A stretch of 38,122 nt of DNA. Source: Alphaproteobacteria bacterium (lineage in GTDB: Bacteria; Pseudomonadota; Alphaproteobacteria; GCA-2731375). Below, piece after piece: positions 2,292-29,947 of this stretch. Below the pieces are notes generated by a model. It saw nothing but the letters and a program-made list of their open reading frames with translations. It was not told the DNA's origin and ran no database searches. Both the position numbers and the translations under genes were made by a program. The stretch is taken from the NCBI GenBank assembly GCA_030747035.1, contig JASLLM010000012.1, forward strand, positions 1 to 38,122, in the 5' to 3' direction. Position 1 is the first letter of the stretch; each line of letters begins with the position of its first letter.

Positions 2292-4079
2292 ATGAGTGAC
2301 AAAATTATCCGCATCGGCGGCGCTAGCGGCTATTGGGGCGACAGCGCCATGGCCACGCCGCAATTCCTGAAGGCCGGTGGACTGGACTACATCGTCTACG
2401 ACTACCTGGCCGAGATCACCATGTCGATCATGGCGCGGGCCCGGGCCAGGGATCCGAACGCCGGCTATGCCCGTGATTTCATCACCGCCATGCTGCACCA
2501 GAACCTGGTCGAGATCGCCGGCCAGGGTGTCAAGATCATCGCCAATGCCGGCGGCGTCAATCCCCGCGCCTGCGGCGAGGCGGCCCGCGCTCTAATCGCG
2601 GACCAGGGCCTGGACCTGAAGGTCGCGGTGGTTCTGGGCGATGATTTGATGGAGCAAAAAGACCGTCTGTCGCCGAAGGAAATGTTCTCGGGCGAAAGCT
2701 TCCCCGATCCGGAAAAACTGGCGTCCATCAACGCCTATCTGGGCGCCTTTCCCATCGCCAAGGCGCTGGACGAGGGCGCCGACATCGTCATCACCGGACG
2801 TTCGGTGGACAGCGCCGTGACCCTGGGCGCCTGCATCCATGAATTCGGCTGGGGCGCGGACGAATGGGACAAATTATCGGGCGGCACCCTGGCCGGCCAT
2901 TTGCTGGAATGCGGACCCCAGGCCACGGGCGGCAACTTCACCGACTGGCAATTGGTGGTCGATAGCATCGACAACATCGGTTATCCGATCGGCGAAGTCT
3001 CCGCCGACGGCAGTTTCGATGTGGTCAAGGCCGAGGGCACGGGCGGCATCGTCACCGTCGGCACCGTCTCGGAACAAATGCTTTACGAAATCGGCGATCC
3101 GCAAGCCTATATCGTGCCGGACGTGGTCTGCGATTTTTCCGATGTCAGGATCAGCCAGGTTTCCAAGGACCGGGTCAATGTTTCCGGCGCCCGCGGTTAT
3201 CCGGCCACGGACACCTACAAGGTCAGCGCCACCTATGGTGACGGCTGGCGCGCCGGCACCCTGATGTCGTTCTATGGCGTCGACGCGGACAAGAAGGCGG
3301 AGGGCTATGCCAACGGCACCTTCAAGCGGGCGCGGGCCGTATTGCGCGCCTCCAACCTTGGTGATTTCAGTGAAACCAGCGTCGAGGTGCTGGGCGCTGA
3401 AAGCCAGTTCGGCGAGGACCGGCAGATTGACGGCAGCCGCGAGGTGGTGCTGAAGATGGCCGCCAAGCATCCCGAACAGGCCGGTGTCGGCATCCTTTTG
3501 AAGGAGGCGACGGGCCTCGGGCTGGCGACGCCGCCGGGCCTGGCCACCTTCGTGGCGGGACGGCCCAAGCCGTCGCCGGTGGTGCGGCTGTTTTCCTTCC
3601 TGGTCCCGAAGGATGAATTGACCATCGAGATCGATTTCGGCGACCGGGAACTCACCTTCGAACGCCCCGTCACGGAGACCTTCGCAGACGGTATGATCGA
3701 ACGCCCGGGCCTGCCCGCCGCCCCCGCCAATGACGGCGAGATGGTGGAGGTGCCACTGATCGATCTGGCCTGGGGCCGCAGCGGCGACAAGGGCAACAAA
3801 GCCAATATAGGCATCATCGCCCGCGAGGCGGCTTATCTGCCCTATATCTGGGCCGGCTTGAGCGAGGATGTGGTCGCGAAGCGCTTTGCTCATTTCCTCG
3901 AGGGCGATACGCAACGCTTCCTGATGCCCGGTTCCAACGCCATCAACTTCCTGATGGACGAGGTGCTGGGCGGCGGCGGTGTCGCCTCGCTGCGCAACGA
4001 CGCCCAGGGCAAGGGCTATGCGCAAGTCTTGCTGGCCCAGCCGATTTCCATACCAAAGGACATGGCGGAGAAACTTTAG
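2292..4079 (+). CDS. atuA: AtuA-family (DUF1446) acyclic terpene utilisation protein
   Basis: 595 aa; N-terminus IRIGGASGYWGDSAMATPQFLKAGGLDYIVYDYLAEITMSIMARAR and IIANAGGVNPRACGEAAR are typical of the AtuA/DUF1446 family. RBS-like gaggagg upstream. Confidence 0.85.
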   Translation: MSDKIIRIGGASGYWGDSAMATPQFLKAGGLDYIVYDYLAEITMSIMARARARDPNAGYARDFITAMLHQNLVEIAGQGVKIIANAGGVNPRACGEAARALIADQGLDLKVAVVLGDDLMEQKDRLSPKEMFSGESFPDPEKLASINAYLGAFPIAKALDEGADIVITGRSVDSAVTLGACIHEFGWGADEWDKLSGGTLAGHLLECGPQATGGNFTDWQLVVDSIDNIGYPIGEVSADGSFDVVKAEGTGGIVTVGTVSEQMLYEIGDPQAYIVPDVVCDFSDVRISQVSKDRVNVSGARGYPATDTYKVSATYGDGWRAGTLMSFYGVDADKKAEGYANGTFKRARAVLRASNLGDFSETSVEVLGAESQFGEDRQIDGSREVVLKMAAKHPEQAGVGILLKEATGLGLATPPGLATFVAGRPKPSPVVRLFSFLVPKDELTIEIDFGDRELTFERPVTETFADGMIERPGLPAAPANDGEMVEVPLIDLAWGRSGDKGNKANIGIIAREAAYLPYIWAGLSEDVVAKRFAHFLEGDTQRFLMPGSNAINFLMDEVLGGGGVASLRNDAQGKGYAQVLLAQPISIPKDMAEKL

Positions 4080-5702
4080 ATGAGCGTTTTTGCTTCCAAA
4101 CTCAGCACCAACACGGAAACATTCGCGGCCAACCGCCAGGAAATGTTGTCCCTGATGGACGACTACCATGCGCTCAAGGAGCGGGCCCGGACATTATCGG
4201 AAAAACGTCGGGCCCGCTTCGAGGAACGGGGACAGTTGACACCAAGGGAGCGGCGCACCCGCCTGTTGGATCCGGGCATGCCGTTTCTGGAACTGTACAG
4301 CCTGGCCAATTATTGCGTGGATACCCCGGACCGGGAGAAATCGATACCGGGCGCCTCCTCCCTGGCCGGCATTGGTTTCATCTCCGGCGTGCGCTGTATG
4401 GTCTATGTGGATGACAGCGGCATCAATGCGGGTGCCTCGACCGCGAGATCCGGTGAGAAACTGCGCGCCTGCCTGGATGCGGCCCGGCGCCACAAGTTGC
4501 CGTTCGTGCACTTGGTGGAAAGTGCCGGTGCCAACCTGATGCAGTACCAGGTAGAATACTGGGCCCATGGCGGCGGTATCTTCTATCGCCGCGCCCTGTT
4601 GAGTGCCGCCGGTATTCCCACCATTACCGTATTGCATGGCCCGGCCACCGCCGGCGGTGCCTACATGCCGGGGATGAGCGACTATGTCATCTCCATCAAG
4701 GGACGCGGCCGGGCATCCCTGGGCGGGGCCGCCTTAACTCGGGCCGCCACCGGCGAGGTTTCAGATGAAGAGGAACTGGCCGGCACGGACATGCACGCGA
4801 CCATCTCGGGTCTGGTGGAATACACCGCCGAGGATGATGCCCATGGCTTGCTGATCGCCCGCAGTTTGGTCGCCAAGCTGGATTGGAACAAGGGCTGCCC
4901 GGCACCGAAGCCGAAATCGTTCACCGAACCGCTGTACAGCCCGGACGAGATCGCCGGTCTGGTGCCCCCCGACTACCGCAAGCCCTACGAAGTGCGGGAG
5001 CTGGCGGCGCGTTTTGTCGATGGTTCCGATTTCGAGGATTTCAAACCGCGCTATGGCGTCTCCACGGTCTGCCTGCAGGCCAGCATCTTTGGCAACGCCT
5101 GCGGCATCATCGGCAACAACGGCCCCATTGATCCCGCCGGTGCCACCAAAGGCGGGCAGTTCTTCCAGCTTTGCGATCAGGCCAATATTCCGATCATCTT
5201 CCTGAACAACACCACCGGCTACATGGTCGGCAAGGAGTACGAACAGGGCGGCATGGTCAAGCACGGCTCAAAAATGATCCAGGCTGTTTCCAACGTCCGC
5301 GTGCCGAAAATCACGCTCTACATCGGCGCCTCCTTCGGGGCCGGCAATTACGGCATGGGCGGTTTCGGTTACGAACCGGACTTCCTCTTTACCTGGCCCA
5401 ATGCCCTGACCGGCGTCATGGGCGGCGAACAGGCCGCCCTGACCATGGACCAGGTAGCCCGCGTCGCGGCCGAGCGGCGCGGCCAGGAGGTCGATGAGGC
5501 CGCCCTGCAGGCGCAGAAGGACAGCCTGATCGCCCATTTCGACAAACAATCCGACGCCTTCTACACCTCCGGCAGGTTGCTGGACCAAGGCATAATCGAT
5601 CCTCGCGACACCCGCCGGGTCCTGGGCTTTGCCCTGGAAACCGTCTGGGAAGCCCGTAACCGCCAGGTTCAGCCGAACTCGTTTGGTGTTGCCAGACTGT
5701 AA
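4080..5702 (+). CDS. Acyl-CoA carboxylase carboxyltransferase (beta) subunit; geranyl-CoA or methylcrotonyl-CoA carboxylase type
   Basis: 540 aa; LVESAGANLMQYQVEYWAHGGGIFYRRA, GPATAGGAYMPGMSDY, GASFGAGNYGMGGFGYEPDFLFTWPNALTGVMGGEQAA. ATG immediately follows the atuA TAG. Confidence 0.92.
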   Translation: MSVFASKLSTNTETFAANRQEMLSLMDDYHALKERARTLSEKRRARFEERGQLTPRERRTRLLDPGMPFLELYSLANYCVDTPDREKSIPGASSLAGIGFISGVRCMVYVDDSGINAGASTARSGEKLRACLDAARRHKLPFVHLVESAGANLMQYQVEYWAHGGGIFYRRALLSAAGIPTITVLHGPATAGGAYMPGMSDYVISIKGRGRASLGGAALTRAATGEVSDEEELAGTDMHATISGLVEYTAEDDAHGLLIARSLVAKLDWNKGCPAPKPKSFTEPLYSPDEIAGLVPPDYRKPYEVRELAARFVDGSDFEDFKPRYGVSTVCLQASIFGNACGIIGNNGPIDPAGATKGGQFFQLCDQANIPIIFLNNTTGYMVGKEYEQGGMVKHGSKMIQAVSNVRVPKITLYIGASFGAGNYGMGGFGYEPDFLFTWPNALTGVMGGEQAALTMDQVARVAAERRGQEVDEAALQAQKDSLIAHFDKQSDAFYTSGRLLDQGIIDPRDTRRVLGFALETVWEARNRQVQPNSFGVARL

Positions 5703-5717
5703 TTATTGGAGAGAGAG

Positions 5718-6527
5718 ATGACCACTTTACCCAAGACGGAAAATATTCTGCTGGAAGAAGACAATGGCTGGCTGACCATCTGGTTCAACCGCCCCGACAA
5801 CCGCAACGCCCTGTCCAAAGAGCTGACCACGGAGCTCAAGGCGGTGCTGAACGCGGTGCGCGACGACCGCGCGATCCGGGGCATCACCTTGCGCGGCAAG
5901 GGCGGCGTGTTCTGCGCCGGCGGCGATCTGAAGGGTTTCAAGAACAACTATCAGGGCGGCGGCCAGAGCGCCGAGGACATTGCCGCCTCGTCCCGCCAGG
6001 GCGGCGAGATGTTCGACCTGGTCAACGAGATGCCGCAAGTGGTGTTGATACTGGTGGAAGGCGCCGCCATGGCCGGCGGTCTGGGCATGGTCTGCACCGC
6101 CGACATCGTCGCCGTCACCAAGGACGCCAAGTTCGCCATGACGGAAACCGCCATCGGCCTGCCGCCGGCACAGATCGCGCCCTTTGTCGCACAACGTCTT
6201 GGCCTGCGCATAGCAAGGCGGCTGATGATCACGGCCTCGCGCTTCGATGGTGAGGAAGCCGGCCGTCTGGGTCTGGCCGACTATGTGGTCGATGATGCCG
6301 CCGGCCTGGATCAGATCCAGGCGGATGTGCAGAAATCGGTGATGCGTTGTGCGCCGAAGGCCAACGCCATCACCAAGGCAATCGTTCTGGCCACCCGCCA
6401 TCTGGACCGCGACGGCCAGCTTGATTTTGCCGCTCAGGGCTTCGCCGAATGCATGCTGAGTGACGAAGGCCGCGAGGGCGTTGCCTCGTTCATCGAGAAG
6501 CGCAAACCGATCTGGGCCGAGAAGTAG
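5718..6527 (+). CDS. Enoyl-CoA hydratase/isomerase family; AtuE-like (isohexenylglutaconyl-CoA hydratase)
   Basis: ATG at 5718 after gagagag. Crotonase motifs NRPDNRNAL, GVFCAGGDLKGF. PPAQIAPFVAQRLGLRIARRLMITASRFDGEEAGRLGLADYV and RCAPKANAITKAIVLA resemble AtuE as remembered. Confidence 0.85.
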   Translation: MTTLPKTENILLEEDNGWLTIWFNRPDNRNALSKELTTELKAVLNAVRDDRAIRGITLRGKGGVFCAGGDLKGFKNNYQGGGQSAEDIAASSRQGGEMFDLVNEMPQVVLILVEGAAMAGGLGMVCTADIVAVTKDAKFAMTETAIGLPPAQIAPFVAQRLGLRIARRLMITASRFDGEEAGRLGLADYVVDDAAGLDQIQADVQKSVMRCAPKANAITKAIVLATRHLDRDGQLDFAAQGFAECMLSDEGREGVASFIEKRKPIWAEK

Positions 6528-6531
6528 CAAT

Positions 6532-8529
6532 ATGAGAAAATTCGAGAGTATTCTGGTCGCCAACCGGGGCGAGATCGCGGTGCGGGTGATGCGTACCGCC
6601 CAGGCCCTGGGCTACCGGGCCATCGCGGTTTATTCCGAGGCCGACGCCCAGGCGCCGCATGTCAAGATGGCTGACGACGCCGTTTTGATCGGCCCGGCGC
6701 CGGTGGGTGAATCCTATCTGGACATGGACCGCATCCTCAAGGCCGTCAAAGAAACCGGCGCCCAGGCGGTGCATCCGGGCTATGGTTTCATGTCGGAAAA
6801 CGCCGCCTTCGCCGAGGCCTGCGACAAGGCGGGCCTGGTTTTCATCGGCCCGACCGCGGATGCCATCAACCTGATGGGCAACAAGGCCGAGGCCAAGCGC
6901 CGCATGATCGAGGCGGATGTCCCCTGCGTCCCCGGCTACGAGGGCGAGGATCAATCCGACGCGGCCATGTTGAAAGCCGCCGGCGGGATCGGCTTTCCCC
7001 TGATGGTCAAGGCCGCGGCGGGCGGCGGTGGGCGGGGCATGCGCCTAGTGGAGACGGCCGAGGATGTGGCCGATGCCTTGGCCGCGGCCCGCTCCGAGGC
7101 CTTGAATGCCTTTGGCTCCGACGAGTTGATCCTGGAAAAGGCCATCATCCAGCCGCGCCATGTGGAGGTGCAGGTTTTTGCCGACAGCCATGGCAACGTG
7201 ATCCATCTAGGCGAGCGGGACTGCTCGGTCCAGCGCCGCCATCAAAAGGTGGTGGAGGAAGCGCCCTGCCCCGTGATGACCGAAGAACTGCGGGCCCGCA
7301 TGGGCGCGGCGGCGGTGGAAGCCGCCCGCAGCATCGACTATCGCGGCGCCGGCACTGTCGAGTTCCTGCTTGATGGCGACGGCGAGTTTTATTTCCTGGA
7401 AATGAACACCCGCCTGCAGGTGGAACATCCGGTGACCGAAATGATCACCGGCCTGGATCTGGTCGCCCTGCAAATCCAGGTCGCCGAAGGCCGGCCCCTT
7501 GGCTTGAGCCAGGATGATATCACCCTGACCGGCCATGCCATCGAGGTGCGTCTGTATGCCGAGGATCCGGCCCAGGATTTCCTGCCCGTAACGGGCGGCA
7601 TCGATCTGTGGCAGCCGGCCACGGGGATGGGCGTGCGCATTGATGCCGGTATCGAGACGGGGTTGGAGATTTCACCCTTCTATGATCCCATGCTGGCCAA
7701 GGTCATCGCCTGGGGCGATACCCGGGAGATCGCCCGCCATCGGCTGATCACTGCCCTGAAGGACACGGCGCTGTTCGGCACCACCACCAACAGAAGCTTC
7801 CTGATCGATGTGCTGGGCCGGGAGGCCTTTGCCAAAGGTGAGGCCACCACGGCCTTCATCGCTGAGGAGTTCACCGACGCCGATCTGGCCGCCGCCGAGC
7901 CTACGTTCGCACAGGCAGCAATAGCGGCGGTGGTGCAGTTCACCAGCGAGCGGCGCCAGGCCTTCGCCAACAGCCTGAACGTCAGCCCGGCCTTGATGGA
8001 TTGGTCCAGCGGCGGTTCGCTGCTAACCCGCTACGTCTACACAGCGGGTGAGAACGAGATGGATCTGACGGTGGCGCCCGGCCATGACGGCATATATAGG
8101 GTGCGTCACGGTGACGATGAGATGCGGGTCGAAATGATCGAGTGTGGCGAGACCACGGCACGCCTGGCCGTCGATGGCCGGCGCCAGGAGGTGCTGTATT
8201 CGGCCCCCAGTCCCGGCGTGCTTGATCTGTCGGTGGATGGGCAGAGCCTGCACTTCCGCAACCGCATCGCCTTTGCCGCCGGCGCCGAAGAGGTTGTGGG
8301 CGGCGGCCATGTTGTCGCGCCGATGCACGGCAATCTGCTGGAGGTTCTCGTTTCACCGGGCGATGAGGTTACGATCGGCACCCGTCTGGCAGTGCTGGAA
8401 GCCATGAAAATGCAGCACGATATTCTGGCGGAAATCGACGGCACCGTAAGGGAGGTGGCCGCCGTCGCCGGCACCCAGGTCGCCGCCGACGATCTGCTTG
8501 TTGAAATCGAAGCGCCTGAAGGAGATTGA
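6532..8529 (+). CDS. Acyl-CoA carboxylase alpha subunit (biotin carboxylase + biotin carrier)
   Basis: ATG at 6532: MRKFESILVANRGEIAVRVMRTAQALGYRAIAVYSEADA. Also HPGYGFMSENAAFAEAC, EMNTRLQVEHPVTEMITGLDLV, and biotinylation motif VLEAMKMQHDI near the C-terminus. Confidence 0.95.
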   Translation: MRKFESILVANRGEIAVRVMRTAQALGYRAIAVYSEADAQAPHVKMADDAVLIGPAPVGESYLDMDRILKAVKETGAQAVHPGYGFMSENAAFAEACDKAGLVFIGPTADAINLMGNKAEAKRRMIEADVPCVPGYEGEDQSDAAMLKAAGGIGFPLMVKAAAGGGGRGMRLVETAEDVADALAAARSEALNAFGSDELILEKAIIQPRHVEVQVFADSHGNVIHLGERDCSVQRRHQKVVEEAPCPVMTEELRARMGAAAVEAARSIDYRGAGTVEFLLDGDGEFYFLEMNTRLQVEHPVTEMITGLDLVALQIQVAEGRPLGLSQDDITLTGHAIEVRLYAEDPAQDFLPVTGGIDLWQPATGMGVRIDAGIETGLEISPFYDPMLAKVIAWGDTREIARHRLITALKDTALFGTTTNRSFLIDVLGREAFAKGEATTAFIAEEFTDADLAAAEPTFAQAAIAAVVQFTSERRQAFANSLNVSPALMDWSSGGSLLTRYVYTAGENEMDLTVAPGHDGIYRVRHGDDEMRVEMIECGETTARLAVDGRRQEVLYSAPSPGVLDLSVDGQSLHFRNRIAFAAGAEEVVGGGHVVAPMHGNLLEVLVSPGDEVTIGTRLAVLEAMKMQHDILAEIDGTVREVAAVAGTQVAADDLLVEIEAPEGD

Positions 8530-15298: not shown

Positions 15299-15339
15299 GA
15301 ACCAACTGAAGCTCGCACTGTTCGATGGGGGAATTGAAC

Positions 15340-16437
15340 ATGACAACGGTACTTTCTGATTTGGGGGAGTTCAGCGTGGATGCGGATGGGGGCGAAGGCC
15401 TGTGGCTGGGCGCCGGCGAGGCGGCGGCGGCGACGGGATGGAGCCTCAAACCCGAGGGACTATGCCGGGGCGACGTTTGCGTGCCCGTTCCCAACGACCG
15501 GGCGCAAGCTTTCGCCGCCGATGGCAAAGTCAATCTGGCCGCATTTTGGGACCATATGAGCATGCCCGCGGCGCATAGCCGGGAAGGCGACGTCTGGGCC
15601 CTGGGCGAAGCGTCGGCGGTCCGGGCCAATGACCTGCGTTCCCTGCAGGCTCCCGATTTCACCCTGCCGGACCTGAACGGCGTTGGACACAGCCTGTCGG
15701 ACCACCGCGGCAAGAAGGTTCTGCTGGCCACCTGGGCCTCCTGGTGAGGCTGCCGTAATGACTTGTCCGTGTGGCAAGAACTTTACAATGATCTGCAGGA
15801 GCAGGATTTCGTGGTCATCGCCGTGGCCATGGACAGCCGCGAGGATGCCGCCCGCCCCTGGATCGAGGCGGCGGCGCCGGCCTATCCGGCCCTGATCGAC
15901 CGGGATCACCGCCTGGCCGAACTCTACAACATGGTCAACGTACCCCAGGCGGCCTGGATCGATGAAAGCGGCCGCATTGTGCGGCCGGCGGAAAACGCCG
16001 GGGCCTACGAGGCCTTCCGCTCGCTGGATTTCGAAACCATGACGGTGCCGGAGGACAAGATGGCGACGGCGGCGGCGGCCAAGGCAACCTATGTCGACGC
16101 GGTTCGCGACTGGGTTTTGACCGGCCGGGACAGCAGCCATGTCTTCACCGCCGAGCAGGCCAGCGCCCGCACGGCTGTGCCCAGCGAGGAAATCGCCAGG
16201 GCCCATTGCCATTTCCGTCTGGGACAATTTCTGTTGCGTCATGACCGGGCGGAGGAAGGCAGGGAGCATCTGGCGGAGGCCTCGCGCCTGCACCCACGCT
16301 CGTGGAACATCTGGCGCCAGGCGGCGGAGGTCAACGACATGGGCCTGGCCGCCGGACCGGATTTCTGGGACCGGGTCAATGCCTTGGGCGATGACTATTA
16401 TTATCCGCCGGTGGATATGGCGGGCATGCCCAAATAG
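15340..16437 (+). CDS. Candidate selenoprotein: redoxin (TlpA/ResA-like) with WASW-U-GC active site; UGA at 15745-15747 read as selenocysteine
   Basis: Split into ORFs 15325-15747 and 15763-16437 in the track, both in one frame. Readthrough gives ...LQAPDFTLPDLNGVGHSLSDHRGKKVLLATWASW[U]GCRNDLSVWQELYNDLQEQDFVVIAVAMDSREDAARPWIEAAAPAYPALIDRDHRLAELYNMVNVPQAAWIDESGRIV..., a continuous thioredoxin-fold domain with UGA at the active-site Cys. ATG 15340 has RBS gggggaattgaac (alternative ATG 15325). Confidence 0.88.
15762..15778 (+). promoter_or_regulatory. Candidate bacterial SECIS hairpin of the redoxin gene
   Basis: CTTG-T-CC-GTGT-GG-CAAG: 4-bp stem, bulged U, 2-bp stem, GUGU loop, starting 15 nt after the UGA. 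Layout resembles the E. coli fdhF SECIS. Confidence 0.7.
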
Positions 16438-28050: not shown

Positions 28051-28795
28051 CGCGGTTGCCATTACCCAGGACGGCCTGCTCGACCGGCGTATTACATTGC
28101 GCCAGCCGCGCCACGGCTACCGGGCCGGTGACGACGCGGTCCTGCTGGCGGCGGCGGTACCGGCCAAAGCGGGACAGGCGGTGCTGGACGCCGGCGCCGG
28201 TGTTGGCGCGGTTTCCCTTTGCCTGGCCTGGCGCTGTCCCGATCTGACGCTGCACGGCCTGGAACTGCAGCCCGAACTGGCGCGCCTAGGCGGGGACAAC
28301 ATCGCCGGCAACGGGCTGGCGGACAGAGTTGCCATCCTGCAGGGCGACATCCGGCAGCCGCCGGCGGAGATCGGCCAAACCGTATTTGCTCACACGGTCT
28401 GTAATCCGCCGTTCCATGTGGCGGGCCGCGCCTCCGCCCCGCCCGACCGGAGCAAGGCTATCGCCCATGGCGAGGGCGAAACGCCCTTGCAAGACTGGCT
28501 GGCGTTTTGTTTGCGGCGAACCGTATCGGGGGGCAGCGTCACCATCATCCACCGCAGCGAGCGCCTGTCGGCGGTCCTGGCCGGTTTACGCCAAGGCGCC
28601 GGCGATATTGTGGTCTTTCCCCTTTGGGCCCGGCCCGGCCGCCCGGCCAAGCGGACCATCGTCCAGGCTAGGGTCGGCGCAAAGGGTCCGGATGTCATGC
28701 ATCCCGGTCTGTGCCTGCTGGACGCCGACGGCAACGACAGCGAAGCGGCCAGAAAGGTACTGCGCGACGGCGCGGCCCTGGATCTGTCTAGCTGA
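28031..28795 (+). CDS. tRNA1(Val) adenine N6-methyltransferase (TrmN6/YfiC)-like
   Basis: ATG 28031 (MPTNPDSAVAITQDGLLDRRITLRQPRHGYRAGDDAVLLAAAVPAKAGQAVLDAGAGVGAVSLCLAWR ... TVCNPPFH). 20-nt overlap with the DUF2007 gene. Confidence 0.85.
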   Translation: MPTNPDSAVAITQDGLLDRRITLRQPRHGYRAGDDAVLLAAAVPAKAGQAVLDAGAGVGAVSLCLAWRCPDLTLHGLELQPELARLGGDNIAGNGLADRVAILQGDIRQPPAEIGQTVFAHTVCNPPFHVAGRASAPPDRSKAIAHGEGETPLQDWLAFCLRRTVSGGSVTIIHRSERLSAVLAGLRQGAGDIVVFPLWARPGRPAKRTIVQARVGAKGPDVMHPGLCLLDADGNDSEAARKVLRDGAALDLSS

Positions 28796-29849
28796 CGGTG
28801 ATAAGCGGCTCGCCGGCACCGCAATGGCCAATGACGGCAGCGGCATCGAAGCCCCTGCCATGGAACAGCGCCAGGACCTCGTCCGCGCCCGACGGCTCGA
28901 CGGCCACCAGCAGGGGACCGGCGGTCTGTGGGTCGTGCAGCATATTGTCGCGCCAGTCGGGCAGATCGCCAGGCAGCCGCACGCCATCGGCGAAAGCCAC
29001 CCGGTTGCGGCCCGCCGCACCTGTGTTCAGGCCCGCCTCGGCCAGCTCCCGCCCCACTTCCAGCATGGGAATTGCCGTCAAATCGATGTGGGCGGCAACA
29101 GCGGAACCCTGGCAAACCTCGCTCAAATGGCCCAGCAGGCCAAAACCGGTGACATCCGTCATGGCATGCACATCCCCACGGGCGCCCAGCTCGGCGCCGA
29201 TATCGTTCAGCTTGGTGGCGCAGGCGAGCATTTCCTCATAGCCGGCATCGGATAGGGTGCCCTTTTTCATGGCGGCGGACAGAAATCCGGTGCCCAGGCC
29301 CTTGCCCAGGATCAGCACATCGCCGGGCCGGGCGCCGACATTGCGCTTGATATTGGCGACATCCACCATGCCGATCGCGGCCAGGCCATATATGGGCTCC
29401 AAGGTATCGATGGAATGACCGCCCGCGATGGGCACGCCGGCGGCCTTGCAGACCGAGGCACCCCCCGCCAGGACCCGCTGAATGGTATCGGTGGAAACCT
29501 TGTCGACGGGCATGCCGACGATGGCCAGGGCCAGGACCGGGCGGCCGCCGACCGCGTAAACATCCGAGAGCGCATTGGTCGCCGAAATGCGGCCGAAATC
29601 GAACGGATCATCAACCACGGGCATGAAAAAGTCCGTCGTCGCCACCATCGCACGGGTCTCGTCGATGCGATAGACGGCGGCGTCATCACCAGTGTCATTG
29701 CCGACCAGCAGATCCGCATTCGGATCAGGCTTGGGCAAGGTCGCAAGCAGCTCCCGCAGCACGGCGGGGGCAATCTTACAGCCTCAACCGCCGCCGTGGG
29801 CCAGGGCGGTCAGCCGCACGGGCTCACCTCCCAAGTTGTCCTTGTTCAT
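28788..29849 (-). CDS. selD: Selenide, water dikinase (selenophosphate synthetase) with in-frame UGA at 29784-29786 read as selenocysteine
   Basis: Full reading: MNKDNLGGEPVRLTALAHGGG[U]GCKIAPAVLRELLATLPKPDPNADLLVGNDTGDDAAVYRIDETRAMVATTDFFMPVVDDPFDFGRISATNALSDVYAVGGRPVLALAIVGMP... The ORF track starts only at 29762 because of the UGA. Alternative in-frame ATG at 29864. Confidence 0.95.
29753..29768 (-). promoter_or_regulatory. Candidate bacterial SECIS hairpin in selD
   Basis: Minus strand CCCGC-CGTGCT-GCGGG: 5-bp stem, 6-nt loop with GU, beginning 16 nt after the UGA. Confidence 0.65.
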
Positions 29850-29947
29850 CCTTGCCTCGTTCATCAATTGTCATTGCCGCGAGGGCGAAAGCGACGATAC
29901 AGGTTTCCGGGATTGGACCGCGATCACTTCTTATTGACTGCCGGCGC

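Follow-up and report, generated by a model that had tools for sequence, protein, structure and literature searches.

The 38,122-nucleotide stretch analysed here (the window) carries on its forward strand a single reading frame that runs from an ATG at 15340 to a TAG at 16435-16437, and the only internal stop in this frame is a TGA at 15745-15747. The preliminary description had read two adjacent ORFs as one frame split by this TGA, which was confirmed: readthrough gives a continuous, thioredoxin-fold product of 365 amino acids (...KKVLLATWASW-U-GCRNDLSVWQ...) in which the TGA corresponds to residue 136. It had also expected that a gene caller would truncate the gene, and indeed the ORF list gives two separate pieces, 15325-15747 and 15763-16437. 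The start at 15340 is favoured over the in-frame ATG at 15325 because the sequence GGGGGA (15327-15332) is suitably spaced upstream of the former. The features of the locus and of the selD gene found in the same window are collected in Table 1.

Table 1. Position and basis of the features discussed in the text (window coordinates)
Feature	Position	Strand	Basis
Predicted selenoprotein gene, WAxxUGC / ResA-like family, 365 aa with Sec136	15340..16437	+	NF041054 (302 bits), UGA conservation, purifying selection
GGGGGA, probable ribosome-binding site for ATG 15340	15327..15332	+	Sequence reading, inference
N-terminal domain, aa 1-102; invariant Cys42 (15463-15465) and Cys47 (15478-15480)	15340..15645	+	N-terminal alignment
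Thioredoxin-fold AhpC-TSA/ResA-like domain, approx. aa 103-216	15646..15987	+	Pfam, AlphaFold, fold comparison
In-frame UGA, predicted Sec136, N-terminus of active-site helix 137-155	15745..15747	+	Conservation, AlphaFold
Cys138 in the UGC motif, presumably resolving	15751..15753	+	Alignment; Ala in L066 only
Predicted bSECIS hairpin: stem CUUGUC (15762-15767) / GGCAAG (15773-15778), apical loop CGUGU (15768-15772)	15762..15778	+	Alignment, covariation
C-terminal all-helical region, aa 238-365; weak TPR-like repeat, approx. aa 289-330	16051..16437	+	Profile match, AlphaFold
selD (selenide, water dikinase), in-frame UGA 29784-29786 (GGG-U-GCK)	28788..29864	-	SelD models, sequence

The N-terminal domain (residues 1-102) has no match in Pfam, and a fold search against the PDB gave no match for it either (best E value 1.3). 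The Pfam matches of the protein are AhpC-TSA and Redoxin, PF00578 being found at 70.2 bits, and its nearest solved folds in the PDB are crystal structures of thioredoxin domains, ResA being among the best. In the AlphaFold model (pLDDT 95) residue 136 comes after strand 126-132 and stands at the start of helix 137-155. Pro202 (15943-15945) is invariant in the alignment and presumably occupies the place of the cis-proline of thioredoxins.

The active site had been described as TlpA/ResA-like. This holds as far as the UGA falls on the first active-site position, but the WCxxC motif of ResA, TlpA and DsbE is absent from the window protein, which has W-U-G-C at this place, i.e. a UxC motif that is one residue shorter than the CxxC of ResA, TlpA and StoA. 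The thioredoxin fold is common to all of these proteins, and ResA is also the best NCBIfam match after the family described below. Nevertheless, the window protein has extra N- and C-terminal domains and, in contrast to the ResA/TlpA/StoA proteins, no evident export signal, signal peptide or anchor. It misses the cut-offs of the corresponding ResA, TlpA and DsbE models by a wide distance (NF002854, 69.9 of 170 bits; NF047696, 51 of 230 bits; TIGR00385, 24.2 of 123 bits).

A family name of the NCBIfam type had been suggested in the preliminary description. The name exists, as NF041054, 'ResA-like WAxxUGC motif-containing protein' (WAxxUGC_long), and the window protein passes its cut-off by a narrow margin (302 bits, cut-off 300), with residues 25-359 covering profile positions 10-353 of 354. 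The UGC motif, the overall length, the architecture and the full-length match are thus shared with this family. Relatives that have the same TGA score between 245 and 500 bits. The WAPYUGC subfamily reaches much higher scores with the model (500 bits for L116), whereas the window protein belongs to the WASWUGC subfamily and lies at the edge of the cut-off. The same gene in a genus-mate (L023, 1483-2577, reverse strand) has 293 bits and falls below it. We note that several true relatives with the same TGA (L023, L021, L042, L065, L101 and L135, 245-295 bits) are under the 300-bit cut-off, so automatic annotation probably truncates them. In other words, the present cut-off of NF041054 excludes close relatives of the window protein.

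A 'Prx-like (UGC-containing)' selenoprotein was listed in the 2008 GOS ocean survey (PMC2398784, Table 2), and later reviews list it under the name 'UGC-containing TlpA disulfide reductase family protein' (PMC9312934, PMC13188914). The GOS family is one of marine and aquatic bacteria, its Sec residue was deduced from the UGA, and the Pfam00578 domain and the UGC motif occur in the window protein as well. Judging by this description, the two are probably the same family. For its Prx-like (UGC-containing) group, a wider family, the survey gave 855 Cys homologues (PMC2398784), whereas none close to the window family was found here. Neither 'WAxxUGC' nor 'NF041054' occurs in any paper of the library searched. 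The family as such is already catalogued, both as NF041054 and as a UGC-type Prx-like/TlpA selenoprotein known since at least 2008 (PMC2398784); the additions made here are a SECIS element based on covariation, the finding of no close Cys form, an orphan N-terminal fold with a CX4C motif, and the problem of the NF041054 cut-off.

The conservation of the UGA codon was investigated in a homologue set that was compiled by scanning a single genome for each species, together with relative-wide and class-wide searches, and that comprises 111 loci with 97 distinct proteins. The bins are labelled Alpha-, Beta- and Gammaproteobacteria, Deltaproteobacteria/Myxococcota, SAR324, Chloroflexota, Rokuibacteriota and, in one case, Rubrobacter; as these are MAGs, some of the names are doubtful. 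The codon at the Sec position is TGA in 111 of 111 loci and in 97 of 97 distinct proteins, and Cys is found there in none of the 97, a result that covers the best 80 of at least 463 named-genome loci and about 780 whole-genome picks. More distant Cys forms may exist beyond this range. No pattern used for the named genomes covered the UGA codon, and a Cys stood at this site in the query, so the uniform presence of TGA is not an artefact of the search. The family members found among 385 genomes of the same class have one TGA each.

Decay of the gene in close relatives had been named as an observation that would speak against a selenoprotein; in the close relatives this codon is TGA as well, and no decay is seen. 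Between orthologues of the same genus, omega (dN/dS) is 0.13-0.25 in the part before the TGA and 0.11-0.19 in the part behind it, i.e. purifying selection acts on both sides. Chance is excluded by the omega values downstream of the TGA together with the presence of TGA at the same codon in every locus.

The UGC motif is present in all members examined except one. This protein, L066 from a SAR324 bin, has U-G-A (alanine) at approximately residue 138, i.e. the presumed resolving Cys is lost and the UGA is kept. Another example of variation within the family is the occurrence of two divergent, UGA-bearing copies per genome, which was seen in three genomes (L116 and L135 in G104, L117 and L133 in G136, L132 and L134 in G239). 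A single stronger match without a stop codon came up in the phylum scan (L136, genome G635) and was considered as a Cys form; it was rejected as an ordinary thioredoxin-like protein with a WCGPC motif.

The region behind the UGA was folded with RNAalifold using 94 aligned sequences. A single hairpin was obtained, with six base pairs and a 5-nt loop, 17-33 nt past the first base of the UGA, and its energy is -7.46 kcal/mol as compared to -0.63 (sd 0.90) for column shuffles. The full 6-bp stem is found in 70 of the 94 sequences, as against 22.5 (sd 3.6, maximum 33 in 500) under synonymous recoding, where codons were exchanged for synonyms according to each gene's own usage. The stem also shows compensation, in that the third base of an Asp codon changes together with the first base of codon +11. 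Of the 17 sequences in which codon +11 starts with A, 16 have GAT for this Asp, and of the 55 in which it starts with G, 46 have an Asp codon ending in C (p = 7e-9, and p = 1e-3 in a set of 46 sequences thinned to less than 65% identity). Likewise, where a CAA Gln codon stands opposite Leu, it is paired with TTG in six cases out of six and never with CTG. The second loop position is always a G. Synonymous variation is suppressed at codons +6 to +8 (ratios 1.8, 2.4 and 2.5; gene mean 1.16, sd 0.26), which would be weak as sole evidence because a few other columns of the gene reach similar values.

The published model of bSECIS elements has a stem of 4-16 bp, a loop of 3-9 nt, a G in the first two loop positions and a distance of 16-37 nt from the UGA (PMC13188914). 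The window hairpin agrees with this model in its 6-bp stem, its CGUGU loop with G at position 2 and its spacer of 20 nt between UGA and loop; its energy, -7.3 kcal/mol for 48 nt and -8.2 for 54 nt, is borderline with respect to the model's limit of -7.5. Folded alone, the window sequence is no better than its shuffles (z between -1.16 and 0.30), and Rfam at the gathering threshold reports no SECIS in the window. The element emerged solely from the alignment, and single-sequence folding is uninformative here. An initial candidate, UGCCG...UGGCA with the apical loop ACUUGUC, was abandoned for the covarying hairpin. We take this hairpin, as defined by covariation, to be the putative SECIS of the family, which is an addition to what was known before.

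The source genome is a MAG broken into 351 contigs (85% complete), so the sel genes other than selD are found on contigs other than this one. The presence of selA, selB and selC had been proposed as a check, and all three are in the genome: selA (583 bits) and selB (433 bits) are adjacent on one contig (C295), and tRNA-Sec(UCA), i.e. selC, is on another (C315). The selD with a Sec codon of its own that had been noticed in the window proved to be real. It scores 393 and 461 bits with two SelD models, and both its start and its in-frame UGA lie upstream of the start given by the ORF list. A strong hairpin comes after this UGA, and its loop, CGUGCU, has the CGUG core in common with the loop at 15768-15772.

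The gene and the Sec pathway also occur together among related genomes. Ten of the 11 gene-bearing relatives have selA, and the gene is absent from 42 of the 43 genomes that are devoid of selA (Fisher p = 4.6e-6, a value that ignores shared ancestry; by genus, selA is present in three of three gene-bearing genera). In the gene-bearing relative G003 selA was not found, possibly because that genome is incomplete. The formate dehydrogenase-like genes of the source genome have no in-frame stop, so they provide no second visible Sec user.

In principle, an isolated stop codon in a MAG may be erroneous, and the TGA might then be a misread TGC or TGT, or else a nonsense mutation in a pseudogene. This explanation has to cope with the same TGA in all 97 distinct homologues, which come from independent assemblies, with the low omega that same-genus orthologues show past the TGA, and with a conserved and covarying hairpin behind this codon; the conserved TGA and the purifying selection downstream already refute it, and we assign it practically no probability. 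The mechanical ORF list yields exactly the two ORFs that would be expected if there were two genes here, one for an N-terminal protein that stops at the TGA, the other starting at TTG 15763. However, the boundary would then fall inside a single thioredoxin fold, after strand 126-132 and before helix 137-155, the NF041054 profile covers both halves in register, and conservation is unbroken through the UGC motif, so that two genes are extremely improbable.

It could further be supposed that readthrough puts another residue at the UGA, by Trp or Cys suppression or by a general change of the code. Readthrough as such is well supported, and it is the identity of the inserted residue that has to be deduced. 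Against a residue other than Sec stand the use of TGA as a normal stop in 5 of the 30 window genes taken as real, the full Sec pathway in the genome, the location of the codon at a catalytic chalcogen position and the bSECIS-type hairpin next to it; we consider this alternative very unlikely.

The selenoprotein reading, put forward as probable in the preliminary description, is strongly supported, since the computed evidence from the Sec machinery, the conservation of the TGA, selection, the co-occurrence with selA and the SECIS-like hairpin agrees, and gene structure and predicted fold are likewise computational observations. Judging from sequence data, the gene at 15340-16437 is, with a probability of about 0.96, an intact bacterial selenoprotein gene in which Sec is inserted at position 136. 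We would thus have a predicted functional selenoprotein where a gene caller gives a truncated gene or two ORFs.

As to the mechanism, SelB with Sec-tRNA(Sec) would recognise the hairpin 17-33 nt past the UGA, and Sec would be inserted at residue 136. By homology with thioredoxin-fold selenoproteins, Sec136 would be the nucleophile and Cys138 its resolving partner, with UxC in place of CxxC. The selenolate may attack a disulfide, a peroxide or another electrophile, and the intermediate would be resolved by Cys138. A further thiol would re-reduce the Sec136/Cys138 site; that Cys42 and Cys47 act as this relay is a guess. The product is most likely a thiol/selenol oxidoreductase or peroxidase, its catalytic cycle being deduced from the sequence.

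To our knowledge, nearly all selenoprotein families have close Cys forms. We tentatively suggest, as a possibility that is rather against the odds, that the present family is Sec-only, without a close Cys form, and that the UxC site together with a CX4C shuttle disulfide in an undescribed N-terminal fold makes up a self-contained selenol relay. Should the family truly be Sec-only, it would be a good model for chemistry beyond the reach of cysteine.

No gene neighbours are conserved beyond the genus, so the genomic context gives no indication of a substrate. Within the genus, the upstream neighbours encode a VOC protein, a cupin and an MFS transporter. Elsewhere in the window, positions 2292-8529 are taken up by consecutive genes for an AtuA family protein, a carboxyltransferase, an enoyl-CoA hydratase-like protein and a biotin carboxylase-like protein, which form a degradation cluster of the acyl-CoA or terpene type.
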